A stretch of 64,000 nucleotides of DNA, from contig CANLQL010000004.1 in the NCBI GenBank assembly GCA_947493265.1, positions 434,001 through 498,000 of the forward strand. Reading direction: 5' to 3'. A program made the translations under genes and the position numbers. Positions within the stretch are counted from its first letter, which is position 1; each line of letters starts with the position of its first letter. Under the pieces are notes generated by a model that saw nothing but the letters and a program-made list of their open reading frames with translations, was not told the DNA's origin and ran no database searches. The DNA is from an uncultured Litoreibacter sp. Its GTDB lineage: Bacteria; Pseudomonadota; Alphaproteobacteria; Rhodobacterales; Rhodobacteraceae. Of this stretch, positions 36,606 to 56,192 are shown piece by piece.

Positions 36606-37211
36606 CTAGTCATTATCATTCAGCCCGGCACCCGCGCCTTTTTCCCGCGACGCGGCCGTTGCGGGGACAAATGTTTTGGCTGCCAAAGACGAAAGAGCAT
36701 CGATTGCAGCTTGTGGGACCAATTCAAGCTCGCCCGCTTCCCGCCGCTCACCGGTTTTTGCTACGGAAACGTTCATCGCGCCTGACGCCGTCGTTTCAAC
36801 GGCAAAATAGACGTCATAGTCTCGCTGCGCTTTGTCCAACAAGGCCCTCAGAACGTCTGGAAAATCCACCCGATCCAGGCGAACCGTCTTGGTGTTATCC
36901 ATCAACGCATCGACAACTGCTGGGGCTGCCATCGCAGCGCCGCATTCCTCTATTTCCAGCGTGTCACCTTCTTCATGAGAAACGAGCGGAGTATGCTCGC
37001 ACATCACGGCCCCGACGACACTGATCATCAAGTCCGGAGAGCTTGCGAACCAACCGGCAGCTGCGGCAAGCGCTTGTGTGTGGCCAAGCGGTAACCCACT
37101 TCCGATACCCGCTTTCAGGAGAAGCGCAAAAACCTCGGACAGCGACGCGCGAACTTTAGGACCCATTCCGATTTCGCGTTGTTTCTTTGCCCAGATTTCG
37201 CCTGCGGTCAT
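36606..37211 (-). CDS. DUF3726-like protein of unknown function
   Basis: A 201-residue soluble protein. The segment SLSEVFALLLKAGIGSGLP then AAAAGWFA resembles the start of DUF3726 proteins as I remember them; that link is tentative. There is no signal peptide, metal motif or membrane helix. It overlaps the upstream 545-residue gene by four bases (ATGA), so the two are translationally coupled, and it precedes the HisD-like gene. Function unknown. Confidence 0.6.
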   Translation of the reverse strand: MTAGEIWAKKQREIGMGPKVRASLSEVFALLLKAGIGSGLPLGHTQALAAAAGWFASSPDLMISVVGAVMCEHTPLVSHEEGDTLEIEECGAAMAAPAVVDALMDNTKTVRLDRVDFPDVLRALLDKAQRDYDVYFAVETTASGAMNVSVAKTGERREAGELELVPQAAIDALSSLAAKTFVPATAASREKGAGAGLNDND

Positions 37212-38845
37212 GCTGGAAACACCGGCAACCACCAGTCATCGGCATTGTGTAATTCATCCGCAAGTGGAGCACCTTGCGCCAATGTGATCCGGGTCCAGCG
37301 GTCGGACTTCGGATCAAACTTTGCGGCGCCAAAAAACGACAGCTTGCACCGCAGCATATCAATCGGCTTGCAGTCCTCACAAATCAGATTGTCCTGAATT
37401 TCGGAGTAAGGATGCGTCGCGTTGAGTTGGACCCGGTAGACTGCAGCGCGGTGTTGGGGATGTTTGCGCAAAAACGCAGAGAGGCTACCGTGAGCGCCCT
37501 CCAAATCACGGTAGAGTGCCTGTACTTGCCGAGCGATATCCAAGGGGCTCTCCAGCTCAGCCCCCGGTTCTTCAAACCGCAATCCCAATCTAGGCTCCTG
37601 CTTTTCTTCGCTGACATACCAAAACTGCCAAGTCTCTGTTTTATCGTTGAAATTACAGCTCAAAGCAAAATCGAAATTGCGCGATATCAAGTCCCGCAAA
37701 TCTCGCGCATCCATCCCCGAATTCAGCGGCTGGACCGGCGATCCGACCATGCACTCGGTCAGTTCATCGACCAGATCGCCAAAGGGTTCGAGTATCAACG
37801 CCACAGTCAGCTCTTGGCAGTCTGTCCCAAGATCGGAGGCAAAATTGATGAGCTGGTCGAGCGGCATGCGTTGCGCAAGCAGACCTTCCAATGAGGCCAG
37901 TACTTGTGACCATTCCACCTTCAACGCTTCAATACGCTGCTGATGTTCAGCGTCGGGGACTTGCCATTGCGACAGATGTGCTTTGGCGCGGTCAGCCAGT
38001 TCAACTATATGGCGGGCTTTCGCCTCTTCCAGACGCGGAAGCTCGCGCACACGTGCCAAGGCGGTTTCGCGCACGATCATCCAGTTATTGAGCAGATCAG
38101 GATGCGACACTAAAAACGGTGCCATCCCTAGCCCTGTAGAATTTCCGATCCCCAAATGCTGTTTCAAATCCCGGTCCAGTGGGTGTCCACCGATATGTTC
38201 AACCAGATCATGGGTAAATCCGCGGATCAGCCAGACGGTCAACATTTCCGCCATGAATGGACCATCAAGGCCCGGGCGATCCTGAATAATATCTCGATCT
38301 GCGATACCAAACTTACCGTTGCCGTATACCGCAGTGGTGCGCATCAGATATCCTGTTCTGGCCACCAATTGCCGGTCCGGCTGCTGGCCTGCGCGCAGGC
38401 GCGTCACCACATGATCAAACAATCGAACCGACTTGTTTGCGCGGCTTAGAACCAGATCCCGGTCAGTAAAACGCCCAGCCTCTTGTAAAGGTGCGTTGGC
38501 TTTCAGACGGGAGATTTCTTCAGCGTCAGGGACACCATCGTATAAAACATAGGCGCTGTCCCAAGCGGTTGCGATCACACGGTCTGTGCGGTCTTCGGGG
38601 TCCAATTCATTCGCAAACGCGACCAGAGAATAAACATTTCCACCCAGCTCAACCGAATAAACCGCGTGTCCGTAGCCATCATCCGACATTTCCCACACCG
38701 GGCGGGTCACCTGCGCGTTATCTTGCCCCAAACGTCTTAGAAGGGTTCGCAAAAAGCTGAGCCGCGTTGGGAACATTGATCCCATCCGCGACAACTTCAT
38801 GACTACCTTGGGGCTTCGCAACAGGGCCTGAGAAATGTTTTGCAT
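37208..38845 (-). CDS. Large conserved-looking protein of unknown function (545 aa)
   Basis: A 545-residue soluble protein that I cannot place in a family. It has a basic N-terminus (LRSPKVVMKLSRMGSMFP), a DEDR-type stretch NELDPEDRTDRVIATAWD, alternating Trp-rich segments (WYVSEEKQEPRLGLRFEEPG) and a C-terminal block with two close cysteines (CEDCKPIDMLRC). No known cofactor motif is visible. I chose the ATG that has AGGGG six bases upstream; the frame is open further out. It begins its own transcription unit, since a terminator lies upstream. Confidence 0.6.
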   Translation of the reverse strand: MQNISQALLRSPKVVMKLSRMGSMFPTRLSFLRTLLRRLGQDNAQVTRPVWEMSDDGYGHAVYSVELGGNVYSLVAFANELDPEDRTDRVIATAWDSAYVLYDGVPDAEEISRLKANAPLQEAGRFTDRDLVLSRANKSVRLFDHVVTRLRAGQQPDRQLVARTGYLMRTTAVYGNGKFGIADRDIIQDRPGLDGPFMAEMLTVWLIRGFTHDLVEHIGGHPLDRDLKQHLGIGNSTGLGMAPFLVSHPDLLNNWMIVRETALARVRELPRLEEAKARHIVELADRAKAHLSQWQVPDAEHQQRIEALKVEWSQVLASLEGLLAQRMPLDQLINFASDLGTDCQELTVALILEPFGDLVDELTECMVGSPVQPLNSGMDARDLRDLISRNFDFALSCNFNDKTETWQFWYVSEEKQEPRLGLRFEEPGAELESPLDIARQVQALYRDLEGAHGSLSAFLRKHPQHRAAVYRVQLNATHPYSEIQDNLICEDCKPIDMLRCKLSFFGAAKFDPKSDRWTRITLAQGAPLADELHNADDWWLPVFPA

Positions 38846-38993
38846 GTTCATCCCCTGCGCCACCAGTAATTGGCGGCGTGGACAAGCCCGGAACGTCTGC
38901 GACGCACGGGGGAAGAACAGCTGATTTTCTTTGTTTGCACTGGTCGCAATTTCGACATGCGCGGACTCTTTCATATTTCTTTGCAAAGGCAAG

Positions 38994-39024
38994 AAAAAGG
39001 GGCAGCCAAAGCCACCCCTTTTTT
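38994..39024. terminator. Bidirectional terminator ending the seven-gene operon
   Basis: AAAAAGGGG pairs with CCCCTTTTT around a 12-nt loop; both strands end in T-tracts. It lies 35 bp past the aldehyde dehydrogenase stop, so the operon ends here. Confidence 0.92.
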
Positions 39025-39058
39025 GAAACACTTTGTTTTTCCGAAAGAATTTATCCGG

Positions 39059-40501
39059 CTAGAAATCCACAGCTGTGTATTTTACTTCCAGATAGTCTTC
39101 CAAACCTTGGCTGCCACCCTCTTTGCCGAGCCCGCTGTCTTTGACCCCACCGAACGGCGCTTCAACCGTTGTAATCAAGCCGGAGTTAATGCCAATCATC
39201 CCGTATTGCAGCTGGTCATTGAGACGCCAGATACGGCCGATATCGCGCGTGTAAGCGTAGGAAGCGAGCCCGAATTCGGTGTCATTCGCCCACGCAATCG
39301 CCTCTTCTTCTTTTTCAAATTTGAAAACGGGAGCGATTGGTCCAAAAATCTCTTCCTTTGCGAACATCATATCTTGTGTGGCCTGTGTGATGATTGTTGG
39401 CTCAAAGAAGCTTTGCCCATTGTCGTGGCGCGCACCGCCCAAAGCCACTTCACCGCCTTTGGAGGTCGCATCAGCAACGAATTCTTCCACTTTCTCGACC
39501 GCATCCATGTCGATCATTGGGCCTTGTTCGACTCCGTCTTCCAGACCGTTGCCAACCTTCATCTTCTTGGTTTCAACGATCAGCTTTTCGACAAACTCGT
39601 CATAGACACCTGCTTGAACATAGATCCGGTTGGCGCAAACGCAGGTCTGTCCTGCGTTGCGGAATTTCGACACGATTGCACCCTGAACTGCCTTGTCGAT
39701 ATCGGCGTCGTCAAAGACGATAAACGGTGCGTTGCCACCCAGCTCCATGGAGACCTTTTTCACCGTATCCGCAGATTGCCGGATCAGTTCTTTGCCAACC
39801 TCAGTGGAGCCTGTGAAGGTCAGTTTGCGGACGCGCGCGTCTTCCATAATTGCGCCACCAATCTTGCGGGCGGACCCGGTCACGATGTTCACTGACCCGG
39901 ACGGGAAACCCACTTCTTCGCAAAGCGCGCCCCACGCAAGCCCGGAATAGGGTGTTGCTGTTGCAGGTTTTGCTACGACCGTACAGCCGACAGCCAGTGC
40001 TGGGGCGATCTTGCGGGCGAGCATGGAAGACGGGAAGTTCCACGGAGTGATCATTCCAACTACGCCAATCGGGTGTTTGGTCACAAGAATGCGGCGGTCG
40101 CCACCGGGTGCAGGTACAATTTCCCCCTTCGCGCGACGGGCTTCTTCTGCGAACCAGCGGACATAGGCGGCACCAATTGTAATCTCACCTTTGGCTTCGA
40201 ATAGCGGCTTGCCTTGCTCAACAGTCAAGAGCTCGGCCAGCGTATCGCGGTTGTCCAAGAGCGCGTCATGAAGCTTCCAGAGAAGATCAAGGCGGTCCAT
40301 CAATCCCATTGATGCAAGACCAGGAAACGCGGCTGCCGCGGCATCGATTGCACGGGATGTTTCCGCACCGCCGCAGTTTGGAATTGTGCCAATAACGTCG
40401 CCAGTGGCTGGGTTTGTTACGTCAATCGTTTCGCCACTATCAGCGGAAATCCATTTTCCACCGACAAGGTTCGTGTCTTTCAAGTACTTGGAGTAGCTCA
40501 T
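39059..40501 (-). CDS. Aldehyde dehydrogenase, candidate sulfolactaldehyde (or succinate-semialdehyde) dehydrogenase
   Basis: A 480-residue NAD(P)-dependent aldehyde dehydrogenase of the GabD class, with catalytic Cys in NAGQTCVCANR (about residue 285) and Glu in ELGGNAPF. By sequence alone the best name is succinate-semialdehyde dehydrogenase. Its place as last gene of an operon with a YihV-like kinase and a YihT-like aldolase suggests sulfolactaldehyde oxidation to sulfolactate, a job known to be done by GabD-like enzymes in other sulfoglycolytic bacteria. Sulfoacetaldehyde dehydrogenase is another option given the taurine genes. Confidence 0.8.
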   Translation of the reverse strand: MSYSKYLKDTNLVGGKWISADSGETIDVTNPATGDVIGTIPNCGGAETSRAIDAAAAAFPGLASMGLMDRLDLLWKLHDALLDNRDTLAELLTVEQGKPLFEAKGEITIGAAYVRWFAEEARRAKGEIVPAPGGDRRILVTKHPIGVVGMITPWNFPSSMLARKIAPALAVGCTVVAKPATATPYSGLAWGALCEEVGFPSGSVNIVTGSARKIGGAIMEDARVRKLTFTGSTEVGKELIRQSADTVKKVSMELGGNAPFIVFDDADIDKAVQGAIVSKFRNAGQTCVCANRIYVQAGVYDEFVEKLIVETKKMKVGNGLEDGVEQGPMIDMDAVEKVEEFVADATSKGGEVALGGARHDNGQSFFEPTIITQATQDMMFAKEEIFGPIAPVFKFEKEEEAIAWANDTEFGLASYAYTRDIGRIWRLNDQLQYGMIGINSGLITTVEAPFGGVKDSGLGKEGGSQGLEDYLEVKYTAVDF

Positions 40502-40504
40502 CTT

Positions 40505-41491
40505 TTATCCTTTTGAGAACGCGAACTGCGTATGCTGTATGTAGGTCTCACCCGGTCTGAGGACCATATTGGGGAAACCGTCGTGATTAATTCCATCGGG
40601 CCAGGCTTGCGGTTCTAGCGCGACACCTGCGTTCTTTGCGTAGCGGCGACCACCAAGACCTGGTGGCGATACGTCCAGCTTGAAGCCATCATAAACTTGC
40701 AAGCCAGGCTCCGTCGTTCGCATTTGCATCGTGATACCAGATTTGGACGACTGTAAGCTGCCAATATTGCGTAACGATCGCTGAGCATCTGAGAGGCAAA
40801 GATTATGGTCAATGATTTCACTATCGGCGATCGGTCGCGGCTCACGAAAATCGAACCTGGTGCCGGTGACATCTTGCGTATGTCCCGTCGGGATGAACGC
40901 CTCGTCAATCGCGGTAAACCGGTCCGCATCAACCTGTAAGATATGGTCATCTGTGGTCGGCCCCCCGTCCAGATTCCAATAACTGTGATGGGCCAAGTTG
41001 CACAGTGTTGGCTTGTCTGTCGTCGCGGTCATCAGAATATCAAAAACACCGTCGTCCTGAAGCGCGTAGGTAACAGAAATTTCCATCGCTCCGGGAAACC
41101 CCATTTCACCGTCTTCAACGGAAATTCCCAAACGCATCGAGGTCGGACTAACATCTTCGACCCGCCAATTGCGTTTGCCAATCCCTTTTGACCCGCCATG
41201 CAGCAGGTGCTGGCCAAGAAAGTTCTGATCCGCTTGATAAGTGATCCCGTCGATGGAAAACCTGCCATCGCCGATGCGGTTGGCGCAGCGACCCGCTATC
41301 GCGCCGAAATAGGGAGAGTCGCTCAGATAAGGGGCAAACTCATCAAATCCCAACACCAGCGGCGGCTCATGACCGGCAAGCCGCAAATCTTGCAGGACGG
41401 CACCATAACTCAGGATATCAGCGCTTAGCCGACCGCCCGTAATCCGGTGTCGCAGCACGTCTTCCCCGTCTGGCATTTGCCCAAATTTCAA
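40505..41491 (-). CDS. Aldose 1-epimerase (mutarotase) family protein
   Basis: A 328-residue galactose mutarotase-like protein with the family blocks GRCANRIG, the histidine motif LAHHSYWNL and an acidic residue near GVALEPQAWPD. It interconverts alpha and beta anomers; in sulfoquinovose operons a homologue acts on sulfoquinovose. The TTG start overlaps the upstream stop (TTGA) and has AGAGG at good spacing; an ATG five codons in is the alternative. Confidence 0.88.
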   Translation of the reverse strand: MKFGQMPDGEDVLRHRITGGRLSADILSYGAVLQDLRLAGHEPPLVLGFDEFAPYLSDSPYFGAIAGRCANRIGDGRFSIDGITYQADQNFLGQHLLHGGSKGIGKRNWRVEDVSPTSMRLGISVEDGEMGFPGAMEISVTYALQDDGVFDILMTATTDKPTLCNLAHHSYWNLDGGPTTDDHILQVDADRFTAIDEAFIPTGHTQDVTGTRFDFREPRPIADSEIIDHNLCLSDAQRSLRNIGSLQSSKSGITMQMRTTEPGLQVYDGFKLDVSPPGLGGRRYAKNAGVALEPQAWPDGINHDGFPNMVLRPGETYIQHTQFAFSKG

Positions 41492-42582
41492 GGACCTTTT
41501 CCTCTTAGATCAATCGCTTGGCCGGACCTTGCGCTTTCCTCAGCAGCTTCGCCAACGAGGACTGACCAGTAGCCATCCGACAGACTTACTTCTGGCGCAC
41601 CCTTGCCCGTTCGCACAAGGTCCAGAAACCGTTCATGTTGGAAAAAAGTGGACCCATGGTGGTCGCCTGCGTTCAGAATCTTTTCATCGACATGGATTTC
41701 TTCACGGATTTCCTCTTTCAACGCACGGATCGACATCGCAAATTCTGATTTGCGTTCCTGCCCATCCGGAGAAAACCGTGCAGGTCCTGGGACGAAGGCT
41801 TCAAGACGGGCTTTTTCTCCGGTCACCGCGACAGTTTCTTGCCAATAGGAACCTTCCGCAAACATGCAAAGGTCCAACATCCCGCGCGCGCCGTTTTCGA
41901 AGTCCACAACAACATAGGCATTGTCGAGGATATCCGGCATTTTGCCATAATACCTCTCGTCCCGGTGGTTCACATCAACGCCGCCGCTGGCATAAACCCG
42001 CACCGGATCGCTTTTCAGAACCAGACGCATCAGGTCCCAGAAATGGCAACATTTCTCGGTTAGTGTTCCTCCTGTACGGGCGTTGAACCTGTTCCAGTCC
42101 CCAACTTTTTCCAGAAACGGAAACCGATGTTCGCGGATCGACATCATTCTTGGTGTACCCGCTGCACCTTGCTCCACGGCCTGCAGCAAACGTTGCAGAG
42201 GGGGCATATAACGGTATTCCATCGCCACCCAGATTGGAGCCGTGCGGCCTTGCGCCATATTCAGCAAATCCCGACAATCCGCCGAAGATGTTGCCAGCGG
42301 CTTTTCAACAAGGATTGGTTTGTCGGTCGCCAAGACCTGCTGGACGATACCTGCGTGCAAATCATTTGGCGCAGCAATAAGATAAACGTCGCAGACATCT
42401 GCGGCTAAAAGTTCCGATGTGTCTGCGAAGCTATGCTGTGCGCCAGATGCACTGACCGAAGCCTCACGCATTTGCGTGTCTGGATCCGCAACCGCGCTTA
42501 CGCTGGCCCCATCCAAAAGTGAGATATTCCGGATATGTTCCTGGCCCATCATGCCAGCACCGATCAACCCGTAGCGGATCAT
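41488..42582 (-). CDS. Gfo/Idh/MocA family oxidoreductase, candidate NAD-dependent sulfoquinovosidase (GH188-like)
   Basis: A 364-residue protein with an N-terminal NAD fold (IGAGMMGQEHI), the family EKPLA motif and a C-terminal half with GGTLTEKCCHFWDLM. The family includes sugar dehydrogenases and NAD+-dependent glycosidases. In this operon no classical GH31 sulfoquinovosidase is present, so a GH188-type enzyme that frees sulfoquinovose from glycosides by transient oxidation is an attractive fit. That is inference; inositol or sugar dehydrogenase activity is possible. It overlaps its neighbours on both sides by four bases. Confidence 0.8.
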   Translation of the reverse strand: MIRYGLIGAGMMGQEHIRNISLLDGASVSAVADPDTQMREASVSASGAQHSFADTSELLAADVCDVYLIAAPNDLHAGIVQQVLATDKPILVEKPLATSSADCRDLLNMAQGRTAPIWVAMEYRYMPPLQRLLQAVEQGAAGTPRMMSIREHRFPFLEKVGDWNRFNARTGGTLTEKCCHFWDLMRLVLKSDPVRVYASGGVDVNHRDERYYGKMPDILDNAYVVVDFENGARGMLDLCMFAEGSYWQETVAVTGEKARLEAFVPGPARFSPDGQERKSEFAMSIRALKEEIREEIHVDEKILNAGDHHGSTFFQHERFLDLVRTGKGAPEVSLSDGYWSVLVGEAAEESARSGQAIDLRGKGP

Positions 42583-43937
42583 CTTGCAGCCCCCAACTCC
42601 ACAACTTTCATGTTCATTCCTGCGGCAATGCTGCGCAGCATTTCTGCATGATCGCCATAGGCCAGCGCCATATGATGTTCCAGCCCGCTATCCATAACAT
42701 CACGCAAAACTGCTTCTGCGCCATTGTCAAAACGGACCACACCGGAGGTCCCGGTAAAGGCCATTTCGCTGCGCAGCATTTCTGCTGTTCCAATGACAAT
42801 TTTTGGCTGTCCAAACGCTTGGCTCAGGCGGAAGAAAGTGACCCTTCCGGGCTTCAGCGTGAACTCATAGAGCAACGCTTGCTTGCGGTTTGTGTGAACG
42901 GTCGCACGGGGTTCATCGTCGGTCATAGACAGCGGAGCTTGCCCACAATGCCAAACCACACCAGTATCATCACCAACATCCATATCCACCAAATCGGCAA
43001 GAAAAACGGGAGCATCCGCGATTTTCTGCAAGATCGCTTGCGTGACTGCGCCGTAGACATCTGCCTCACAAGCGCATGGAACGCGCGCCTCCCCCATCAT
43101 CGAAACGGGTCCGCAGACGGCGCCGCCATATTCGGTAAATGTCTCTGGCCAGCACCGAATGGCGAACGCATCAAACTTATTTTCGCTGCGCAGCATTTCC
43201 AGTGCTCCGGCCAGCCTAAGTGAGCGGTCCAATTCGCCTGCATCCATCTCTGACAAATTGGGGAGTTGCGCGGCTTTCTTTCGGTAAGGTTCAACCTTTT
43301 TATCTTCAAGCCCTCTGGCCATTTCAAACAATGGCTCCAAGCTCATCTCGGTGACATCAGCCCCCGTAAGCGCCTTCAATTCACCCTTGTCATACGCACA
43401 TGTATCAAAACCGTCAGGATGCATCCCGATACGAGCTATCTTGAGGTTGGGAACGGGAAATTCACGAGGCTGGGTAGTTGGAGTGTCCCCTGAAATAGGA
43501 TTTACATTACGCTGCCCTGCTAGAAGCGCAGCTAGACCGTCAGGGGTCGTCGCGTCCTTTGGGTCAGCGTAGAGCCAACCAGGGTTAATTTCGTTTCGGC
43601 CCAACGCATGGTTGGCAAGGTTCAAACCACAAAACGCATTCAGCCTAAGCCGGCCACCCAACCGAGGTTCCGGAACAGCCCAGATCGCGATTGGAAGGCC
43701 AAGCTTTGACGCTTCGACGACGAAACTTGCGTCCGTAAATGTCACTTGCAATACAAGAACAAGATCAGCGCCACGAACCGCGTCCAGTGCCGCCAGGTCT
43801 GCTTCCATTAAAAGACTGCGGGGGCCAATGACGTCATGACTTGACGCATCAAGCACGCTGAGCATGCCAGACAACATTTCTTCAGCATAAGGGACGTCGA
43901 AGGTCGGCCGCGCAAGCGGCAGAATACCAATTTTCAT
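42579..43937 (-). CDS. L-fucose/arabinose isomerase-like protein, candidate sulfoquinovose isomerase
   Basis: A 452-residue protein resembling the FucI/AraA superfamily (COG2407 type). It has an N-terminal Rossmann-like half (MKIGILPLARPTFDVPYAE) and a C-terminal half with WPETFTEYGG and LEHHMALAYGDH, where metal-binding Glu and His residues of the family are expected. The operon context needs an aldose-ketose isomerase before the kinase, so sulfoquinovose to sulfofructose is proposed; fucose-type 6-deoxy sugars are the alternative. It is not related to the YihS isomerase of E. coli. Confidence 0.72.
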   Translation of the reverse strand: MKIGILPLARPTFDVPYAEEMLSGMLSVLDASSHDVIGPRSLLMEADLAALDAVRGADLVLVLQVTFTDASFVVEASKLGLPIAIWAVPEPRLGGRLRLNAFCGLNLANHALGRNEINPGWLYADPKDATTPDGLAALLAGQRNVNPISGDTPTTQPREFPVPNLKIARIGMHPDGFDTCAYDKGELKALTGADVTEMSLEPLFEMARGLEDKKVEPYRKKAAQLPNLSEMDAGELDRSLRLAGALEMLRSENKFDAFAIRCWPETFTEYGGAVCGPVSMMGEARVPCACEADVYGAVTQAILQKIADAPVFLADLVDMDVGDDTGVVWHCGQAPLSMTDDEPRATVHTNRKQALLYEFTLKPGRVTFFRLSQAFGQPKIVIGTAEMLRSEMAFTGTSGVVRFDNGAEAVLRDVMDSGLEHHMALAYGDHAEMLRSIAAGMNMKVVELGAAR

Positions 43938-43940
43938 CTG

Positions 43941-44969
43941 CTAGATCTCGGAATATTCGTGTCGGAAACTGGCATCGCTTGGCGTGAAGGACGCACCACC
44001 TTGGCCATAGCATTCATGCGTCACCCAAGGGGTTGCCTTTTCATCCGTTAAAGCACTGATTTCTTTCATATAAGACGCGCTTTCGCCAACTAGACCGGCG
44101 TGAATTTTTTCCCAATCTGGGAAAGCTTGAAACGCATCCAGCCAAATAGCGCGACCCGCCAGATAGCCTGACGCACCTGCTTTGTAGGCGTGCTCAAGAA
44201 TGGTTTTGAATTCCGGCTTACCAGCACCTGCAGACAACATCACCCAGGGCCTGCCTGCAAGCCTGCCAAGTTCGTCGAACATGGCCTGAACACCATCTGT
44301 TTCGGCGACATCCTTTGCAGCTACTGGGCTTTCCAATTTGAAGACGTCGACACCGAAATCTGCACCCGAGAAAGCCTCAACAGATTTCAAAACATCGTCT
44401 GAGCGTTTGGTTTTCATCTCGATATAATCTTGTGTCTGCTCTGCGTCGGTATCGATCGGATGGACAAGCAATTCGAACAGGAATGGAATGTCGTATTTTG
44501 CGCAGGCCTCACCAATGCGCTTCGTCCAATCCTGCTGATATTGGTTAATTTCGGGAGAGGCATCAGGGCGATACCAAGCCAAAACCTTAACAGCGTCGCC
44601 TCCCATTCGCTTGATCTTGCCAACGCTCCAATCGTCGATCTGCGACGATTTTCGGCCCATTCCGGTTTCTTCAAACAAGGAGTCTTCTAGCGTTACAATC
44701 AGCCCTTTGGTGGGGGATAGATACTTGAGCCCGCGCGGGATTGCGTAATGTGGGTCCAACAGCATCGCCGAAGACGCTTCTTGCAGAGTTTCGACAAGCA
44801 TCGCCTTGAACCGCGCAACATCTTCGTAAGGTGCCTCATCTGTTCCATAATGCGCAGCAATAGGCCCTTTAATCGGCGGTCGCTGATCGACGGCAGTCAT
44901 TTTGAACAAACCGTTTGCATCGGCCATACGACGCATCCCCCAAAGCTTACCTGCGGTGAGTTCGATCAT
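43941..44969 (-). CDS. Class I ketose-bisphosphate aldolase of LacD/YihT type, candidate sulfofructose-phosphate aldolase
   Basis: A 342-residue TIM-barrel aldolase. The Schiff-base lysine is K211 in VDVFKLESPVA, and the phosphate/sulfonate-binding C-terminal block is AGASGYLAGRAIW. That block is nearer to E. coli YihT (AGASGFLAGRAVW) than to staphylococcal LacD, from memory. It would cleave sulfofructose 1-phosphate to dihydroxyacetone phosphate and sulfolactaldehyde. Tagatose 1,6-bisphosphate is the alternative substrate. I start at MIELTAGK, which overlaps the kinase stop by four bases. Confidence 0.78.
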   Translation of the reverse strand: MIELTAGKLWGMRRMADANGLFKMTAVDQRPPIKGPIAAHYGTDEAPYEDVARFKAMLVETLQEASSAMLLDPHYAIPRGLKYLSPTKGLIVTLEDSLFEETGMGRKSSQIDDWSVGKIKRMGGDAVKVLAWYRPDASPEINQYQQDWTKRIGEACAKYDIPFLFELLVHPIDTDAEQTQDYIEMKTKRSDDVLKSVEAFSGADFGVDVFKLESPVAAKDVAETDGVQAMFDELGRLAGRPWVMLSAGAGKPEFKTILEHAYKAGASGYLAGRAIWLDAFQAFPDWEKIHAGLVGESASYMKEISALTDEKATPWVTHECYGQGGASFTPSDASFRHEYSEI

Positions 44970-45844
44970 GTGTTTTCCTTCAAAAAGAGTTCTACTTGGG
45001 CCCGGTTCGGAGTCGCTTTTCGCCCGCCAGGTCCTGTACATTTCAAAGCGGCCGCAGCGTTGGCGCAGCGCATCGCTTCCATTTCAGACATCGTCTCTGC
45101 AAGACACAACGCGAACGCGCCGTGCCAAACGTCTCCGGCCCCAAGCGTATCGACAACTTCAACGTTGAAACCGCCTAGGGATTTGATTTCATTGTCTTCG
45201 ACCCACTTCACACCGTCTGCGCCGCATGTCACTGCGACCCATCCCGGCAGTAATTTAGCTGCGTTTCTCAGGGCTGCTTCCGTGTCCGTCGATCCTGCGA
45301 ACGCGTGCAGACCTTGTTCTGAAAAGACGACATGACTGGCAAGTCTTGCCAGTGTTTCCGGGACAGGTTCTTCCCCATCAAGGATTGTGTGGCAGCCAGG
45401 GGGCGCGGCTTCGAAGGCAGCGCGAGCCGCCTCTGGCCATCTTGTATCGGCAAGAATTGCTGCGCAGCGAAGGTCGGTGATATCACCCGGAGCGGCCGGC
45501 AAGCCTTCCCCTCGAAACGCCATGATCTGGCGTTCCCCTTTGGCATCTACATAGACTGACGAAACGGCGGAGCGGCCTGCTTGCGCGACTATTAGGCGGG
45601 AAAGGTCGACGCCTTCCTCGCGCAGATCATTCGTTACCAGATCACGGACCTCATCCTGACCAAACCTGGCCAAAAGCTGCGCACGTCCACCCAACCGCGC
45701 AATCGCAACACTCGCGTTTGCGGCACATCCACCCCCAACGACATTCAACGCACCAGCTTGAAATTTCTGCGCAGTTTTTGGCAGTTCATCGACCGAATAG
45801 ACGAAGTCCAGAACCGCACTGCCAACGACAAGAACCTCCGCCAT
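44966..45844 (-). CDS. PfkB-family kinase, YihV-like (candidate sulfofructose kinase)
   Basis: A 292-residue ribokinase-fold kinase with GGGCAANASVA near residue 37, ILADTRW at 130-136 and the catalytic VDTLGAGDVWHGAF. Aligned by eye to E. coli YihV it keeps Lys27 at the same number and Arg135 (YihV Arg138), recalled as sulfonate contacts; the YihV Asn109 position is Ala. The end ALKCTGPGGRKATP also matches YihV ALKCTRPGGR. These points favour sulfofructose over fructose or tagatose phosphate. The ATG overlaps the peroxidase stop (TGATG). Confidence 0.78.
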   Translation of the reverse strand: MAEVLVVGSAVLDFVYSVDELPKTAQKFQAGALNVVGGGCAANASVAIARLGGRAQLLARFGQDEVRDLVTNDLREEGVDLSRLIVAQAGRSAVSSVYVDAKGERQIMAFRGEGLPAAPGDITDLRCAAILADTRWPEAARAAFEAAPPGCHTILDGEEPVPETLARLASHVVFSEQGLHAFAGSTDTEAALRNAAKLLPGWVAVTCGADGVKWVEDNEIKSLGGFNVEVVDTLGAGDVWHGAFALCLAETMSEMEAMRCANAAAALKCTGPGGRKATPNRAQVELFLKENT

Positions 45845-47100
45845 CAATCCACGTCCAATCCGCTGGGAACCGCTTTCGGGCGACCCAAGCGTCCATATCG
45901 GCTGTCCCCACCATTCAGGGTTTTCAAGAATGAAACGAGGTCATTAATTTCTTCATCAGATATATTTACAGGTTTTATATCAATCGCTTGGGAAACGCGC
46001 TCCATTTCTCTGCTGTCAGACTGGATCACAAAATCAATCGCTGCCAGCCATGGTGCGGGCGGCAAAGCCGCAAGATCAGGCGTCCAATTCTTCAACGCAT
46101 CTTGGGGATTGAGATGGTGGCGGATGATCCCTTCCAGCGTTGGGTAGGCCCCGTTATGTCCGTAGGGTGCTGTTAATGCGACGTTCCGCAAAGACGGTGT
46201 TCGAAAGCGATATGCGTCGGCCAAATCGTTGCTTTCCGCCATGCGGCCGGTGTCGCGTGGGATCGGATCAAACCGTCGCGTACGACCAGGGCCGAATGGC
46301 GGCAGACCAATTGAATGAAACGCGTGATCTGTTTGGAACGGGCCGGAATGGCAGCTGCTGCAATTTGCTTTGCCGTAGAATAGATCAAGGCCGCGAAGTT
46401 CACTTTCGGAAAGTCCACCCTTGCCCTCAAGATATTGGTCAAACGGGCTGTCGGCGCTGCGCCATTCGCTATCCATGAAAGCGGCCAGACTATTGGCGAT
46501 GTGGGCGATTGTGACGTCCTCCGGCTTGGCCAGATCAAATGCGTCGACAAAAGCATCGCCATAGGCAGGTATCGTCCGTACACGCTTGGCCAAGATTGGC
46601 CAGGCTGCGTCAATTCGGTCATGGATAGCGCCCGCGATTTCGTTTTCTTTTGGGTTTCCTGCCATCTCAAACTGGGCAACCAGCGGAAAGATGGCTTGTG
46701 CGGCCAACAAAGATGCTAACCCTTTTGGCAACCATTCCTCAGCCGGTGAATTCACCCCGTTTCCGTAGTCCTCTGACGCGCTGACCCTGCCGTCATGGAA
46801 AAACACCTGAAATTCCATTGCACCGATATTCCACAGTGCAGGAGCATGGCGGGGCACACGTTTTTTGATCCGATTTGGACCGGTGTCTGCGATCCGTTTT
46901 GGACCTACCCCGATGCCACCTTCGCCGATCCCAAGGCTCAACCCATCAGCAGAAAAGAAGTCGTGGTGATGACATGTTCCGCAGCTGATATTCCGGTTCC
47001 CCGATAGGATCGGGTCGTAGAACAAAAGCTGTCCAAGAGCGGCTTGCGCTTCATTGATTTCAGGGAACATATCTTGCGTGATTGGCACAGGGTCAGCCAT
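45844..47100 (-). CDS. Di-heme cytochrome c peroxidase/MauG family protein
   Basis: 418 residues from the ATG, with two c-type heme motifs, CGTCHH (about residue 41) and CSSCHS (about residue 230), and the family segment TPSLRNVALTAPYGHNG. The family reduces peroxide or oxidises partner proteins in the periplasm. In frame before the ATG there is a convincing signal sequence (LLPLAVCLGLGGPAMA before DPVP) but no ATG, GTG or TTG ahead of it, so the true start is unresolved; an unusual start codon, or a sequencing or frameshift problem, is possible. It is the first gene of the operon leading into the kinase. Confidence 0.82.
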   Translation of the reverse strand: MADPVPITQDMFPEINEAQAALGQLLFYDPILSGNRNISCGTCHHHDFFSADGLSLGIGEGGIGVGPKRIADTGPNRIKKRVPRHAPALWNIGAMEFQVFFHDGRVSASEDYGNGVNSPAEEWLPKGLASLLAAQAIFPLVAQFEMAGNPKENEIAGAIHDRIDAAWPILAKRVRTIPAYGDAFVDAFDLAKPEDVTIAHIANSLAAFMDSEWRSADSPFDQYLEGKGGLSESELRGLDLFYGKANCSSCHSGPFQTDHAFHSIGLPPFGPGRTRRFDPIPRDTGRMAESNDLADAYRFRTPSLRNVALTAPYGHNGAYPTLEGIIRHHLNPQDALKNWTPDLAALPPAPWLAAIDFVIQSDSREMERVSQAIDIKPVNISDEEINDLVSFLKTLNGGDSRYGRLGRPKAVPSGLDVD

Positions 47101-47148
47101 TGCAGGCCCGCCAAGACCAAGGCAAACTGCAAGCGGAAGGAGACCCTG

Positions 47149-47613
47149 ATGCGTGCGTTTATTTTCGCCCTTTTGCTTGCGAGCCCGGCCGTTGCCGATA
47201 TTGAAAAAGCTCGTGACTTGATGGAAACCAACAAATTTGTCGAAGCTCGTGAAGCGCTCTGGCCCGCGGCCAGATCCGGCAACGCCGATGCCGAGGAACT
47301 GATCGGCGTCATGTATGCCCTTGGGCTTGGTGTTGAAAAAGACCCCGTGCGCGCGTTTGAATGGTATCTTCGCGCCTCCATGAAGGGGCACCCCGGCGCG
47401 CAGTCGGGAATTGGCTGGTACTACGAGGTCGGGATCGGCACGCAGATTGATCTGGTCCGCGCGTATATGTGGTACGCGCTCAGCGCGATAGGCGGCGACC
47501 CTGATGCCGCGATTAGCCAGGAAGAGGTCGTCAAGAAGATGACCAAAGATCAGATTGAACATGCGCATGAGCTGATCGCCGATTACAAAGTCTGGATGTA
47601 TCCGTTTCGGTGA
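47149..47613 (+). CDS. Sel1-repeat secreted protein
   Basis: A 154-residue protein with a short signal peptide (FALLLASPAVA before DIEKA) and two Sel1-like repeats (GVMYALGLGVEKDPVRAFEWY and GWYYEVGIGTQIDLVRAYMWY, each read in two parts). Such alpha-helical repeats mediate protein contacts. AAGGAGA precedes the ATG. Its 5' end lies opposite the signal-sequence region of the peroxidase gene, so the two are divergent and overlap in control DNA. Confidence 0.85.
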   Translation: MRAFIFALLLASPAVADIEKARDLMETNKFVEAREALWPAARSGNADAEELIGVMYALGLGVEKDPVRAFEWYLRASMKGHPGAQSGIGWYYEVGIGTQIDLVRAYMWYALSAIGGDPDAAISQEEVVKKMTKDQIEHAHELIADYKVWMYPFR

Positions 47614-47668
47614 TGTCTTTGTTCTGGAAAGCGTCAAACCGCTTGAACCTTTCCGGAGCAAAGACGTA

Positions 47669-47695
47669 AAGGCGTGGCCATGACAGCCACGCCTT
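47669..47695. terminator. Terminator between Sel1 gene and TRAP operon
   Basis: AAGGCGTGGC and GCCACGCCTT form a perfect 10-bp stem with a 7-nt loop. It ends the converging Sel1 (plus) and dctP (minus) transcripts. The GGCGTGGC core is the same as in the tauA attenuator. Confidence 0.8.
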
Positions 47696-47705
47696 CTTCG
47701 TTAAT

Positions 47706-48779
47706 TTACTGCGTATCTGCCATACGCGCGGCGTCGATCTCGGCTTCAGCTGCCGCAACAGATGCGTTCAACGCATCATAGGCCGCCTGACCGCCATCAA
47801 CATTGGCTGTGAACCACTCGTAGACCGGTGTTGCCGCTTCTTTGAAAGCCGCTTTTTCATCCGGTGTTGGAACATAAAGATCGCCACCACCTGCTTGGAA
47901 GTCTTGGTAAGCTTGAATGGATTTCCGCTTAGGTGACGCAAATGTCGCCTGTTGCAGCTGGTAGAAACCATCGGACACAACCTGGCGAAGCTCTGGTGAC
48001 ATGCTCATCAGTTTTTCGTTGTTCATAAACCACAGCGCACCCATGTAGGCGTGACCATCCAGCGTGACGTATTGCAGACCAGCATCCGGGAACTTCATGC
48101 CCATGATGTCTGTGATGCCGTTTTTGGATCCTTCAACAACGCCCGTCTGGAACGATGTGAACAGCTCCGGCCACGGGATCGGTGTCGGGGACGCACCAAG
48201 GGCTTTCACAAGCTCCTGCGGAAGGTCAGCAACAACGGTCCGGATTTTCAAGCCAGCCATATCTTCAGGCGATTGTACGCGACGCTTGGTGTTGGCAAAG
48301 TTTCTCCAGCCACCTGTGTTGCCGATCGTCATCAGACGCATTGTGTCGCCAGATACCTCGCGCACCATGCCCTGCATCGTTTTCATGAATTCAGAACCGT
48401 TTTTGAGAACAGCTTCTGCAACCCGGTCATCGGCCATCAGATATGGCAGGTCGAGAACTTGCACGAACGGGAAGATGCCCGATACGCCACCGGACGTGGA
48501 GATATAGACGTCAATCGTCCCATCGCCGATGCCTTGCAGACATTCCGCACCGTTGCCGCAAAGCTGGGTGCCGATGAACATCTCAACTTCGATGGCACCG
48601 TTGGAGGCTTGCTCCACATAGTTTTTGAAGACGACCAGACCATCATAGTCTTCGTCGTTTTCATTTGAGTTGGCAGTCGCACGGATTTTGATGGCGTGAC
48701 CATCAGCGTAGGACGCAAAGCCAATAGCTGACAGCGCTGTCGCAACAACCGCACTTTTCAGGATGGTTCCGAGTTTCAT
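47706..48779 (-). CDS. TRAP transporter substrate-binding protein (DctP family)
   Basis: A 357-residue periplasmic binding protein with a signal peptide ending SYADGHAIK. The DctP fold is supported by ANSNENDEDYDGL-like and FTSFQTGVVEGSKNG segments; the conserved Arg for carboxylate binding is near KIRTVVADLP. Substrate unknown; position beside a sulfosugar operon makes a sulfonate or sugar acid plausible. Third gene of the dctQ-dctM-dctP run. Confidence 0.9.
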   Translation of the reverse strand: MKLGTILKSAVVATALSAIGFASYADGHAIKIRATANSNENDEDYDGLVVFKNYVEQASNGAIEVEMFIGTQLCGNGAECLQGIGDGTIDVYISTSGGVSGIFPFVQVLDLPYLMADDRVAEAVLKNGSEFMKTMQGMVREVSGDTMRLMTIGNTGGWRNFANTKRRVQSPEDMAGLKIRTVVADLPQELVKALGASPTPIPWPELFTSFQTGVVEGSKNGITDIMGMKFPDAGLQYVTLDGHAYMGALWFMNNEKLMSMSPELRQVVSDGFYQLQQATFASPKRKSIQAYQDFQAGGGDLYVPTPDEKAAFKEAATPVYEWFTANVDGGQAAYDALNASVAAAEAEIDAARMADTQ

Positions 48780-48810
48780 GTAGTGTTTCCTCCCATTTGA
48801 AACGTCTTGG

Positions 48811-50286
48811 TTAGTTTATGAAGCCAAAGAAACGTGGCACGAACAATGAAATTGCCGGCACGTAAGTAATAAGGAATATGACCGCGATTTCGATCGCAAG
48901 GAAAGGCATGATTGCTTTCGCGATCGCCTCGACCCTTTCGCCTGACACCGAGGACGCGACAAATAACACCAATCCCATCGGGGGTGTTGCAAGTCCCACA
49001 GTCAGGTTCACGCTCATAATGATCGCGAAATGGACCGGATGAATTCCCAGATCCAGAAAGATCGGTGCCAAGATTGGCCCAAGGATGATGATCGCTGGGC
49101 CTGCGTCCAAAAACATGCCAACGATGAACAAGAGCAGGTTGATCAGGAACAGCAGGATCAACGGGTTTTCGCTGAGGCTGAGGATATACGCCGCCAGAGT
49201 TTCCGGCGCGTGGCTAAGCGAGACAACCGTCTTGAAGGCCATCGCTGCACCGACCAGAAGCAAAACCACGGCAGAGGTGATGCCCGCATTGATCAGCACT
49301 TCGGGCAGGTCTTTCAGTTTCAGCGTTCTCAGGATGAAGAACCCTGCCAGCAGCGCATATGCAACAGCCACAGCTGCAGCTTCAGTCGGCGTAAATATAC
49401 CTGCCAGGATACCACCGAGGATCAGGACCGGAGTTTGCAAAGGCACAGTGGCGCGCTTGCAAACCATCCGGAAATCGTGGCCCACCATGCGGCGCAGACC
49501 AAGGAAGAACGCATGTGCAATCAACAGCGCAATGCCCAGCATTAGCCATGGCATTGTCGCGCTTGCGTCCTCCCCAACCGGCATGAATGTCCAGATCAGC
49601 AGCCCAAGATTCAAACGGACCAGCAGGAAGGATGCCCACCATTCGAGCACTCCCAGTGTTGTACCTTTCAGCACGACACGCTTGGCTTTTGGCAAATCGT
49701 AGCGGTCAGCGACGACGCGTACCATGACCATCAAACCGACACCAACCAAGACGCCCGGTACGATGCCCGCCAGAAACAGCGCTGCGACGCTTTCGCCCAT
49801 GACATAGGCATAGATAATCATGATGCCGGAGGGCGGGATGATTGGACCGATAACCGAACTTGCGGCAGTAATCGCTGCGGCGAATTTCCGTGTGTAGCCT
49901 TCCTTCTCCATCGCGGGGATCAGCATGGACCCCAGCGCGGAGGTATCAGCTACAGCCGACCCTGAAAGGCCAGCAAACAACATGGAGGACAAGATATTCA
50001 CTTGCGCCAAACCACCCCGTAGGTGGCCCATCAGGGCTTGGCTAAACTCAACCAGGCGCATCGTTATGCCGCCTCGGTTCATAACCTCCCCCGCTAACAT
50101 GAAAAACGGGATTGCCATCAACGGGAAGCTGTCCATCCCGTTGTAGACGTTGCGGTACAAAAGCGTGATGTCTTTTTCTTGGCCGTTTAGCCAAAGCAAT
50201 ATACCCGGTGCGGCCAAAAGGCCGAAAAATACCGGCAACCCGACCATCAGGAAAACTAGGAAAAGCGGAAGGAACCATACAAGCAT
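48811..50286 (-). CDS. TRAP transporter large permease (DctM family)
   Basis: A 491-residue membrane protein, longer than the common ~430 residues, with roughly 12-14 transmembrane helices and an extra hydrophilic stretch near residues 200-260. Family motifs include GLSGSAVADTSALGS and TVGLATPPMG. It forms the Na+-coupled transport channel with DctQ. Overlaps dctQ by one base. Confidence 0.9.
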   Translation of the reverse strand: MLVWFLPLFLVFLMVGLPVFFGLLAAPGILLWLNGQEKDITLLYRNVYNGMDSFPLMAIPFFMLAGEVMNRGGITMRLVEFSQALMGHLRGGLAQVNILSSMLFAGLSGSAVADTSALGSMLIPAMEKEGYTRKFAAAITAASSVIGPIIPPSGIMIIYAYVMGESVAALFLAGIVPGVLVGVGLMVMVRVVADRYDLPKAKRVVLKGTTLGVLEWWASFLLVRLNLGLLIWTFMPVGEDASATMPWLMLGIALLIAHAFFLGLRRMVGHDFRMVCKRATVPLQTPVLILGGILAGIFTPTEAAAVAVAYALLAGFFILRTLKLKDLPEVLINAGITSAVVLLLVGAAMAFKTVVSLSHAPETLAAYILSLSENPLILLFLINLLLFIVGMFLDAGPAIIILGPILAPIFLDLGIHPVHFAIIMSVNLTVGLATPPMGLVLFVASSVSGERVEAIAKAIMPFLAIEIAVIFLITYVPAISLFVPRFFGFIN

Positions 50287-50876
50287 TATTCTGCTCCCGC
50301 CGCGGCTGAATCTGGGATAATCGGCAAGTCGTCACCACCGCCCAACATGGTGATCAGCTGCCTCAAGATCAGCTCGACCGTGATGACCGCCATCAGGAAG
50401 ACGCCAACCAACAAAGAGGCCATCATCCAGCTTCGCGGAACGCGGAACCAGTCAGTGAAACCGATATCTGTCGGGATCCAAAGCGCTGCGGTTTTGAATT
50501 TGCCACCGAAGCCTGTGACCTCGCTCCAGCCAATCTGAACGGCCGTGACAAGAACAATCATCGCAAGGAATAGCAGGAACATCGAAAGGACTGCGGCAAC
50601 GCGTTTTGGCATCATCAGAACAAGCATATCAATCGCGACGAACCCGCCACGACGATAAGCGGTTGGCGCGACCAGACCTGTGAGCCAAAGCATCATGAAG
50701 CGCGCAGCTTCGTCTGGCCATGGAAGTGCGTTGTTGAGGATATAGCGGTAGAAAACCTGGATCAGGATAAACAGCACCATCAGCACCATCAAACCGACCG
50801 AAATATATCGTCCGATCGCCAGTACAAAGGCATTCACCGTTGCCAGGAGCCTACTCAGACCAAGTAATGCTGTCAT
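50286..50876 (-). CDS. TRAP transporter small permease (DctQ family)
   Basis: A 196-residue protein with four transmembrane helices and the DctQ pattern ALPWPDEAARFMMLWLTGLVAP. GGGAAG before the chosen ATG supports this start; the frame also opens at 50918. Upstream is an operator-like site for the DeoR-family regulator. Confidence 0.88.
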   Translation of the reverse strand: MTALLGLSRLLATVNAFVLAIGRYISVGLMVLMVLFILIQVFYRYILNNALPWPDEAARFMMLWLTGLVAPTAYRRGGFVAIDMLVLMMPKRVAAVLSMFLLFLAMIVLVTAVQIGWSEVTGFGGKFKTAALWIPTDIGFTDWFRVPRSWMMASLLVGVFLMAVITVELILRQLITMLGGGDDLPIIPDSAAAGAE

Positions 50877-50934
50877 ATGCTTCCCAAATTCGCGGCTTTG
50901 ACCTCGCGAACCTCCCAAGGCGCCCTCCAGCGCG

Positions 50935-52922: not shown

Positions 52923-52925
52923 GGT

Positions 52926-53738: not shown

Positions 53739-53760
53739 TTACGTGTAACCTCCCATGAGG

Positions 53761-53852
53761 TCCCCGACACGTTTCGGGGAAACCTGTTGACAAGCCTAAC
53801 CCGTTTGCGGTTAGTATTTCAATATGTAAAACTAAGTTTCACATAGTGGAAC
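53761..53852. promoter_or_regulatory. Promoter and operators between IclR gene and sugar ABC operon
   Basis: A palindrome TCCCCGA-CACGTT-TCGGGGA (53761-53780) is followed by -35 TTGACA at 53787 and a weak -10 near 53811. Then come two copies of TTTCA-N1/0-ATA spaced exactly 20 bp (53817, 53837). The second is nearly palindromic, GTTTCAC-ATA-GTGGAAC (53836-53852), as expected for IclR sites. Confidence 0.5.
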
Positions 53853-53876
53853 CACGCATTACTCTGGGAGGATCTC

Positions 53877-55139: not shown

Positions 55140-55147
55140 AATCTCTT

Positions 55148-55174
55148 GCCGGGGCGGGCGCGCCTCGTCCCGGC
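55148..55174 (+). terminator. Hairpin between binding-protein and permease genes
   Basis: GCCGGGGCG pairs with CGTCCCGGC (one G-U). No clean U-tract follows, so it may act as an mRNA stabiliser or attenuator that raises binding-protein yield. Confidence 0.6.
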
Positions 55175-56191: not shown

Positions 56192-56192
56192 G

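Follow-up and report, generated by a model that had tools for sequence, protein, structure and literature searches.

The system described here is a seven-gene operon in a 64,000-nucleotide stretch of DNA from an uncultured Litoreibacter sp. (the window; contig CANLQL010000004.1, positions 434,001 to 498,000), which was compared across genomes by computation. Together with adjoining transporter genes, the operon very likely provides for the uptake of sulfoquinovose glycosides and their breakdown by a sulfoglycolytic Embden–Meyerhof–Parnas (sulfo-EMP) pathway, joined to the breakdown of C3-sulfonates in the same cell. The firmest part, proposed with high confidence, is the sulfo-EMP breakdown of sulfoquinovose; full mineralisation in this strain is a reasonable but weaker expectation. 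Sulfoquinovose is a plant sulfur sugar, and its full route to sulfate is usually assigned to two bacteria. The genome is one that we take, as the original prediction did, to be of Roseobacter type within the Rhodobacterales. That prediction had proposed a sulfo-EMP operon, and evidence from sequence, fold, active sites and gene neighbourhood agrees with it (GH188 enzyme, SqvD/SftI-like isomerase, YihV-like kinase, class I aldolase, mutarotase and GabD-like dehydrogenase). It had also held that every step was covered, with different protein families for glycoside release and isomerisation; candidates for the isomerase, kinase, aldolase and sulfolactaldehyde enzyme do lie in one cluster, and the two differing families proved to be a GH188-type SqgA and an SqvD-like isomerase.

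As predicted from the encoded families, the core is a hybrid sulfo-EMP set, comprising an SqvD-like isomerase, a YihV-type kinase and a class I aldolase of the LacD branch, opened by a GH188 enzyme and closed by the oxidation of sulfolactaldehyde. It would use the sulfo-EMP intermediates with an enzyme set that is neither that of E. coli nor that of sulfo-EMP2. Gene families, residue conservation and conserved clustering were computed, and from them we infer every substrate, the import, the regulation and the joining of the two halves. In the proposed route, a tripartite ATP-independent periplasmic (TRAP) transporter, DctPQM, would import sulfoquinovosyl glycerol or free sulfoquinovose, SqgA would split the glycoside via transient C3 oxidation on bound NAD+, and the mutarotase would equilibrate the sulfoquinovose anomers. 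The SqvD-like metal isomerase would then convert sulfoquinovose to sulfofructose, the YihV-like kinase would form sulfofructose-1-phosphate, the LacD-branch class I aldolase would cleave this to dihydroxyacetone phosphate (DHAP) and sulfolactaldehyde, and the GabD-like enzyme would oxidise sulfolactaldehyde to sulfolactate. Outside the operon, an SlcC-like dehydrogenase would produce sulfopyruvate, ComDE would produce sulfoacetaldehyde, Xsc would release sulfite and acetyl phosphate, and SoeABC would oxidise the sulfite.

Organization of the operon

All seven genes lie on the minus strand and belong to the families originally named for them; coordinates, Pfam and NCBIfam matches confirm the tight packing, with overlaps of 1–4 bp or gaps of 3 bp. 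The GabD-like aldehyde dehydrogenase gene (39059–40501; proposed sulfolactaldehyde dehydrogenase) is separated by 3 bp from that of an aldose 1-epimerase (40505–41491; proposed sulfoquinovose mutarotase), which overlaps by 4 bp the gene for the predicted GH188-type NAD-dependent sulfoquinovosidase SqgA, of the Gfo/Idh family (41488–42582). The latter overlaps by 4 bp the gene of the putative SqvD/SftI-like sulfoquinovose isomerase (42579–43937), which a 3-bp gap separates from that of the LacD/PRK12858-branch class I aldolase (43941–44969; proposed sulfofructose-1-phosphate aldolase), whose start is an ATG internal to a longer mechanical open reading frame (ORF). A 4-bp overlap joins the aldolase gene to that of the YihV-like PfkB kinase (44966–45844; proposed sulfofructose kinase), and a 1-bp overlap joins the kinase gene to mauG, encoding a MauG-like di-haem peroxidase (45844 to about 47100, start uncertain). 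The operon had been expected to end at a hairpin near 38994; a minus-strand hairpin of 13 pairs is present at 38994–39023 and has the longest stem of the terminator scan, in which terminator-like sites as a whole were not above chance (25, against 24.0 in shuffles).

Predicted sulfoquinovosidase and isomerase

The Gfo/Idh protein is a predicted GH188-type NAD-dependent sulfoquinovosidase. In a PDB search it matches the SqgA structures 8qc3 (2.3e-112) and 8qc2 (2.2e-110) and also 8zn9, named 'oxidoreductase, putative' (1.4e-125); other Gfo/Idh dehydrogenases start only at 8.1e-23. Alignment to ArSqgA places all eight checked residues described as contacting sulfoquinovose (Lys107, Tyr136, Arg166, Leu170, Lys172, Glu189, His193 and His321; PMC10755693) at conserved positions, including the sulfonate triad and the residue binding O4. 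The published Glu163 of ArSqgA (PMC10755693) is Val in the numbering used here, and the adjacent Glu164 is kept.

The isomerase appears to be SqvD/SftI-like with the arabinose/fucose-isomerase fold, to judge from its family match and its structural model. Its sole NCBIfam match is the sulfoquinovose isomerase family NF048012, over the full length and at 238.8 bits, and the L-fucose isomerase C-terminal domain PF02952 is matched at 37.4 bits (cut-off 29.3); a search of the PDB by sequence gave no match. The AlphaFold2 model (mean predicted local distance difference test score, pLDDT, of 87.7) retrieves L-arabinose isomerase AraA (1.2e-20) and E. coli L-fucose isomerase FucI (8.6e-13) with Foldseek; arabinose and fucose isomerases match across 1e-20 to 5e-10, and the best match beyond them is at 5e-4. 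Invariant Glu, Asp and His columns are present in the isomerase alignment and may include the metal ligands.

Kinase, aldolase, mutarotase and dehydrogenase

The kinase, a PF00294 protein, is by sequence nearest to YihV: its top match among all PDB chains is the sulfofructose kinase YihV (7ag6, 9e-50), and it is 38% identical to the E. coli enzyme. Of YihV Lys27, Asn109 and Arg138, which we take to bind the sulfonate, the Lys and the Arg are kept. The aldolase is predicted to be of class I, in the LacD/PRK12858 branch, with YihT as a distant relative. It belongs to PF01791, scores 329.1 bits against NF009498 (cut-off 184) and matches PDB entries 8tnf (1e-88) and YihT 7ag7 (8.2e-18), so that the LacD/PRK12858 branch outscores YihT by far and YihT is not the closest family; the Schiff-base lysine of YihT (Lys193) is aligned in it, which marks class I. 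A literature search on the identity of 8tnf gave nothing relevant.

The mutarotase matches PF01263 (3.3e-76). The GabD-like protein, the proposed sulfolactaldehyde dehydrogenase, scores 640.9 bits against the succinate-semialdehyde dehydrogenase model TIGR01780, just under the cut-off of 646.35. For a sulfolactaldehyde dehydrogenase from rhizobia, an Arg171/Arg289 pair has been put forward as the site that binds the sulfonate (PMC10599462). Both arginines are present here, as judged by spacing from the WNF motif and the catalytic Cys, but the pair also occurs in succinate-semialdehyde dehydrogenases and is not diagnostic.

Conservation across the family

The sample consisted of 394 genomes of the family, including that of the window, at about one per genus. 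The isomerase has matches at E 1e-3 or better in 54 of them and close orthologues (at least 47% identity, E <1e-80) in 32; the 22 other genomes, with best matches of at most 31% identity, were left out of the neighbourhood counts. Neighbourhoods were stretches of up to 20 kb around the 32 isomerase genes, with identity thresholds chosen for this analysis, and contig ends and the 20-kb limit lower the counts (in G099 and G351, for instance, mauG falls slightly beyond the stretch).

The block is conserved in other genomes of the family, as the original prediction had suggested that a search might reveal. Own locus included, kinase and isomerase occur together in 32/32 loci, and the LacD-type aldolase and SqgA in 26/32 each, which exceeds chance clustering; isomerase, kinase and aldolase stand together in 26. 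SlcC-like, DctM and DctP proteins are each encoded in 24/32 loci, DctQ in 23, a DeoR regulator (at least 40% identity) in 21, Sel1 in 19, MauG in 18, and the mutarotase and a dehydrogenase homologue (at least 60% identity) in 15 each. Among 14 loci of a named collection (Rhodospirillales, Hoeflea, Hyphomicrobiales, Beijerinckiaceae, Methylocystis, SAR324, Parvularcula and others), 10 contain the kinase, 9 the LacD-type aldolase and 7 SqgA, several of the loci being cut by contig ends. A metagenome-assembled genome of the Rhodospirillales (L031) has the full order dctQMP, sel1 (reverse), mauG, kinase, aldolase, isomerase, SqgA; Chloroflexi and Desulfococcaceae loci have the isomerase without kinase or LacD-type aldolase. 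Six stretches at weak isomerase matches (L077–L082) hold no such cluster, three in dropped genomes (G283, G211 and G333) and three in genomes that hold an orthologue. Among them, L079 (G211:C12:27000-45000) has weak matches of 24–40% to the aldolase, dehydrogenase, isomerase and SqgA, perhaps from a distant other sugar pathway.

Several observations weigh against the sulfo-EMP assignment of the core. The isomerase score is far under the NF048012 cut-off of 700 bits, and YihV Asn109 is Ala in the kinase (Asn in a related locus, L060). Over the tblastn match the aldolase shares 27.6% identity with YihT, its curated family is labelled tagatose 1,6-bisphosphate aldolase, and we know of no function for 8tnf, its closest structure. 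The dehydrogenase is inseparable by sequence from succinate-semialdehyde dehydrogenase, and 17/32 loci are without a homologue at 60% identity or more. Furthermore, 6/32 loci (in G201, G256, G332, G014, G209 and G059) have kinase and isomerase without a nearby LacD-type, YihT-like or FbaA-like aldolase, so some isomerase clusters may do something else; two of these genomes, G256 and G332, are the two that also hold the SmoC homologue discussed below. The aldolase-less clusters are L059 and L071–L075, and L059 contains a gene for a TauD-type dioxygenase.

The tagatose label of the aldolase family would also suit another 6-sulfo sugar, for example sulfofucose degraded via sulfotagatose and a tagatose-type aldolase, and a PfkB–PF01791 pair has been weighed for sulfofucose in Paracoccus (PMC12421959). 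Such a substrate is very improbable here: the Paracoccus pair is reported not to have been raised in sulfofucose-grown cells (PMC12421959), SqgA keeps the checked sulfoquinovose contacts including the O4-binding residue, and the TRAP block is common to clusters of a second sulfoquinovose pathway described below. An ordinary operon for a tagatose-, fucose-, inositol- or arabinose-type sugar, with no sulfonate role, would account for the generic Pfam names (PfkB, DeoC/LacD, Fucose_iso_C, GFO_IDH_MocA and Aldedh), and is at odds with the sulfonate residues of GH188, a sulfoquinovose isomerase model as the only NCBIfam match, YihV as the best kinase match, and slcC-like and comDE genes in related clusters; we regard it as extremely improbable.

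Probable uptake genes common to two pathways

The conserved unit extends beyond the seven genes, up to position 51766. It includes sel1 on the plus strand, encoding a Sel1-repeat protein with an apparent signal peptide (47149–47613; PF08238, 2.1e-15), and, on the minus strand, dctP for the TRAP periplasmic binding protein (47706–48779; PF03480, 1.1e-51), dctM for the large permease (48811–50286; PF06808, 2.1e-113), dctQ for the small permease (50286–50873, ORF open to 50918; PF04290, 9.4e-23) and a gene for a DeoR-family regulator, likely a local repressor (50996–51766; PF00455/PF08220). DctPQM is a candidate importer of sulfoquinovose or sulfoquinovosyl glycerol.

The same uptake genes accompany the sulfoquinovose monooxygenase (sulfo-SMO) pathway. 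Stretches around mauG were taken from 18 other genomes, hand-picked from MauG matches rather than at random, together with two from the own genome; three of the 18 (G326, G332 and G057) also hold the isomerase. SMO genes, dctQMP, sel1 (reverse) and mauG occur in this order in 13/18 stretches (L099–L104, L106, L108, L109, L112, L113, L115 and L116). DctM is encoded in 13/13 of these loci and an SqgA homologue (49–54%) inside 7/13 stretches. In L101 only the flavin reductase lies before the stretch edge, with the SmoC homologue of that genome just past it; L107 has reductase genes without TRAP genes, and L097, L098, L105 and L111 have only sel1–mauG. The core of L112 comprises an alkanesulfonate-type monooxygenase, an aldo-keto reductase and a flavin reductase, with DctM and DctP among its TRAP parts, and from this make-up we infer that it is the published sulfo-SMO set.

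SmoC homologues (E <1e-130) are present in 163/394 genomes, comprising 2/32 of those with the isomerase (G256 and G332) against 161/362 of the others, and in 0/26 of those with the LacD-type aldolase. The uptake end is thus common to sulfo-EMP and sulfo-SMO clusters and the core differs. As the same importer type stands with both pathways, it is a separate line of evidence that the substrate imported is sulfoquinovose or its glycoside. Quick trees were used to look for gene swaps between the pathways. The dctP tree mixes its 27 sulfo-EMP and 13 sulfo-SMO loci in part, with 7 label changes against a shuffled mean of 11.1, at least 2 of them forced by well-supported branches, but the mauG tree (18 + 13 rows) separates by pathway with 1 label change.

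These arrangements lead us to lean, with modest confidence, towards a modular Roseobacter-type system, in which a common front end (DctPQM and SqgA, with sel1–mauG alongside) would be combined with a core of either sulfo-SMO or hybrid sulfo-EMP type, the latter being joined in turn to either SlcC–ComDE–Xsc–Soe or SlcC–ComC–SuyB-like genes. The sulfonate would be mineralised in one cell, and DctPQM would act as a TRAP importer that takes up sulfoquinovose or its glycerol glycoside.

The MauG-like peroxidase has a conserved neighbourhood and no evident pathway step, and Sel1 likewise stands outside the chemistry. The MauG-like protein matches PF03150 (2.5e-34) and contains two CxxCH motifs; no in-frame ATG, GTG or TTG stands just ahead of its apparent signal peptide, as in many relatives. 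The mechanical mauG ORF extends to 47661 and is antisense to sel1 over that part. The 5' ends of mauG and sel1 overlap on opposite strands (45844–47149; relatives L031 and L045–L116), and an in-frame CAT is frequent in the mauG frame of relatives, in the window being the reverse complement of the sel1 ATG. Across 45844–50918, dctP, reversed sel1 and mauG form a same-strand run broken by one opposite-strand gene, an order kept in many sulfo-EMP and sulfo-SMO loci that looks like a non-contiguous operon. A sulfoquinovose-specific role for mauG was ruled out, because MauG-like matches at E 1e-3 occur in 291/394 genomes. The own genome has a second MauG-like gene (G000:C3:586083-587330, L110), 49% identical and without an adjoining sel1. 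MauG and MbnH act on partner proteins, and Sel1 retains several Trp and Tyr across 39 sequences; that MauG might modify Sel1 as its substrate is offered as an idea only, by analogy.

A proposed route from sulfolactate to sulfate

Candidates for each step from sulfolactate to sulfate are present in the own genome. In the window, xsc (sulfoacetaldehyde acetyltransferase; 27885–29654, plus strand) scores 921.6 bits against TIGR03457 (cut-off 676.4) and is followed on the same strand by a Pta-like phosphate acyltransferase gene (29729–30688; NF006045, 278.7 bits, cut-off 282) and by genes for a SoeABC-like sulfite dehydrogenase (30685–35116; soeA 30685–33504, soeB 33501–34241, soeC 34241–35116). 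The last three belong to molybdopterin, 4Fe-4S and DmsC-type anchor families and are presumably Soe, the name originally given to them; no Soe model matched. On the minus strand follows an HpsN-type 3-dehydrogenase for sulfopropanediol (2,3-dihydroxypropane-1-sulfonate, DHPS) at 35182–36489 (PDB 8v35, 2.4e-148); a histidinol dehydrogenase was ruled out for this gene, since the best structure of that enzyme matches at only 1.2e-64. DHPS degradation is likely also encoded here, beside soeABC. The own genome has two more HisD-family copies. The earlier suggestion that soeABC could oxidise sulfite formed later is strengthened by the adjoining xsc, pta-like and hpsN genes and by slcC-like and comDE genes elsewhere in the genome, of which comD scores 144.2 bits (just under the cut-off of 147.95) and comE 236.1 bits (cut-off 221.5).

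ComE (TIGR03846, E <1e-45) is encoded in 84/394 genomes, with 16/32 among the isomerase-positive and 68/362 among the others (Fisher p 1.6e-4), and in 13/26 of those with the LacD-type aldolase. Xsc is encoded in 245/394, with 27/32 against 218/362 (p 0.007), and in 16/16 genomes with both isomerase and ComE. SlcC-like and comDE genes lie inside the cluster in 8/32 loci (L053, L054, L056, L058, L063, L064, L067 and that of G314, L130). In G197 one contig carries, within about 27 kb (about 586.5–613 kb), comDE, slcC-like, dehydrogenase, mutarotase, SqgA, isomerase, aldolase, kinase, deoR, TRAP, sel1, mauG, xsc and soeABC genes. The two halves would work together in the present strain as well, to judge from relatives that carry both as one locus.

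The isomerase genomes without Xsc are G015, G040, G057, G074 and G209. G040 and G057 have slcC-like, ComC-family and SuyB-like genes in its place, G015 and G074 have slcC-like genes only, and G209 has neither slcC-like nor ComC/SuyB-like genes. Sulfo-EMP-type clusters with SlcC-like, ComC-family and SuyB-like genes (L035, L057 and L070) suggest an alternative second half via sulfolactate lyase. In the own genome, SuyAB was rejected because the sole PF04295 protein looks like a galactarate dehydratase (374.4 of 730.85 bits) and has a KDG-kinase-like gene and a TRAP gene in its vicinity. Against L-sulfolactate dehydrogenase, the sole PF02615 protein reaches 158.1 of 500 bits, and it was not accepted as ComC.

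The join of the two halves has its own difficulties. ComE is missing from half of the isomerase-positive genomes and from 13/26 of those with the LacD-type aldolase; the SlcC-like, comD, comE and GlcD-like genes of the own genome lie about 170 kb from the operon; a scan for PF04295 found no SuyB candidate there; and xsc and soeABC adjoin taurine genes and therefore may serve taurine. The taurine-type island at 20478–30688 comprises an ABC transporter, an aminotransferase, a MocR-type regulator, xsc and the pta-like gene. Sulfolactate might simply be exported, with sulfoquinovose converted to DHAP and excreted sulfolactate as in Arthrobacter, and with ComDE, Xsc and SoeABC serving taurine, cysteate, DHPS or external sulfolactate. 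Sulfolactate is described as the only such product of Arthrobacter AK01 (PMC10755693), and G171, the one sampled genome from the same genus, contains the cluster and Xsc but no ComE. Against export stand the comDE genes inside 8/32 sulfo-EMP clusters, the slcC-like genes in 24/32, the presence of Xsc in all 16 ComE-positive cluster genomes and the xsc and soeABC genes in the same stretch of G197, and we consider export alone unlikely. Breakdown of sulfolactate in the same cell is the reading that we prefer.

Neighbouring loci

Between the operon and hpsN lie 36606–37232, with no Pfam or NCBIfam match, and 37208–39031, with no Pfam match; the same-genus genome shows the same gene order across 36606–39031, with about 30% identity. 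An FGGY kinase, a DAO-type FAD oxidoreductase and a DeoR regulator at 14957–18895 resemble glycerol catabolism, and could use the glycerol freed from sulfoquinovosyl glycerol. A separate sugar operon at 51864–62391 encodes a sugar ABC transporter, an IclR regulator, an SDR resembling xylose dehydrogenase and a KDPGal-type aldolase; its transporter part also adjoins the sulfo-EMP cluster in L055.

Comparison with known systems

Annual production of sulfoquinovose is put at about 10 billion tons (PMC10755693). Marine Roseobacters are described as degrading it by the oxygen-dependent sulfo-SMO route (PMC13372026), and sugar cleavage with sulfonate breakdown in one bacterium has been called unusual (PMC12421959). 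If the present reading is true, about one in twelve genomes of the family (32/394 by isomerase; 26 also with the LacD-type aldolase) would combine the same importer with a different, ATP-dependent core, and the holders of ComDE–Xsc (16/32) would carry out the second step without a partner. A PF02952 isomerase beside a PfkB kinase would serve as a marker for clusters that surveys based on YihS or SmoC could miss, and DctPQM is a testable candidate TRAP importer of sulfoquinovose.

GH188 and SqvD are already known from sulfoquinovose clusters (PMC10755693, PMC9594981), and the different families are therefore not new in themselves. Known before are GH188, the occurrence of SqvD in hybrid clusters and all of the downstream enzymes, these last being listed among known DHPS routes (PMC12330013). 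Fig. 5 of PMC10755693 may already show a core of this kind; its legend places Jannaschia faecimaris second, after the sulfo-EMP organism Arthrobacter. The open-licence literature yielded no report of a TRAP importer joined with sulfoquinovose, of sulfo-EMP with ComDE in one bacterium, or of a hybrid sulfo-EMP core combined with a TRAP importer, and earlier reports elsewhere are possible.

The E. coli yih pathway has the same intermediates, a YihV-like kinase, a class I aldolase with the same Schiff-base lysine, a PF01263 mutarotase and a DeoR-type regulator, CsqR. The present system differs from it in the FucI-fold isomerase (YihS in E. coli), in GH188 (GH31 in E. coli), in the LacD-branch aldolase, in the proposed oxidation of sulfolactaldehyde (reduction in E. 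coli) and in the TRAP importer. The sulfo-EMP2 pathway of Firmicutes (SqvD, SqiK and SqiA) shares the SqvD-type isomerase (PMC9594981), whereas a PfkB kinase (PF00294) and class I aldolase (PF01791) here stand in place of SqiK (PF00365) and the class II aldolase SqiA (PF01116). As published, the hybrid sulfo-EMP clusters of Yersiniaceae also have the SqvD-type isomerase, and Yersinia/Chimaeribacter loci L040–L042 carry a YihV-type kinase too; they differ in a class II aldolase, and L040–L042 are without SqgA, TRAP, slcC-like or comDE matches. A Vibrio hybrid differs as well, in its SqiA aldolase.

Arthrobacter sulfo-EMP resembles the present core in its GH188 enzyme, GabD-like dehydrogenase, YihV-type kinase and class I aldolase (PMC8873060, PMC10755693), and differs in a YihS-type isomerase, the lack of a mutarotase and the excretion of sulfolactate. 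Roseobacter sulfo-SMO clusters with GH188 share the DctPQM–sel1–mauG block and, in 7/13 stretches, the SqgA homologue (49–54%), in contrast to their core of monooxygenase, aldo-keto reductase and flavin reductase. With the tandem sulfofucose pathway of Paracoccus wurundjeri, too, a single bacterium both cleaves the sugar and degrades the C3-sulfonate; that pathway is described as of Entner–Doudoroff type on sulfofucose with a SuyAB lyase (PMC12421959), unlike the ComDE–Xsc route proposed here.

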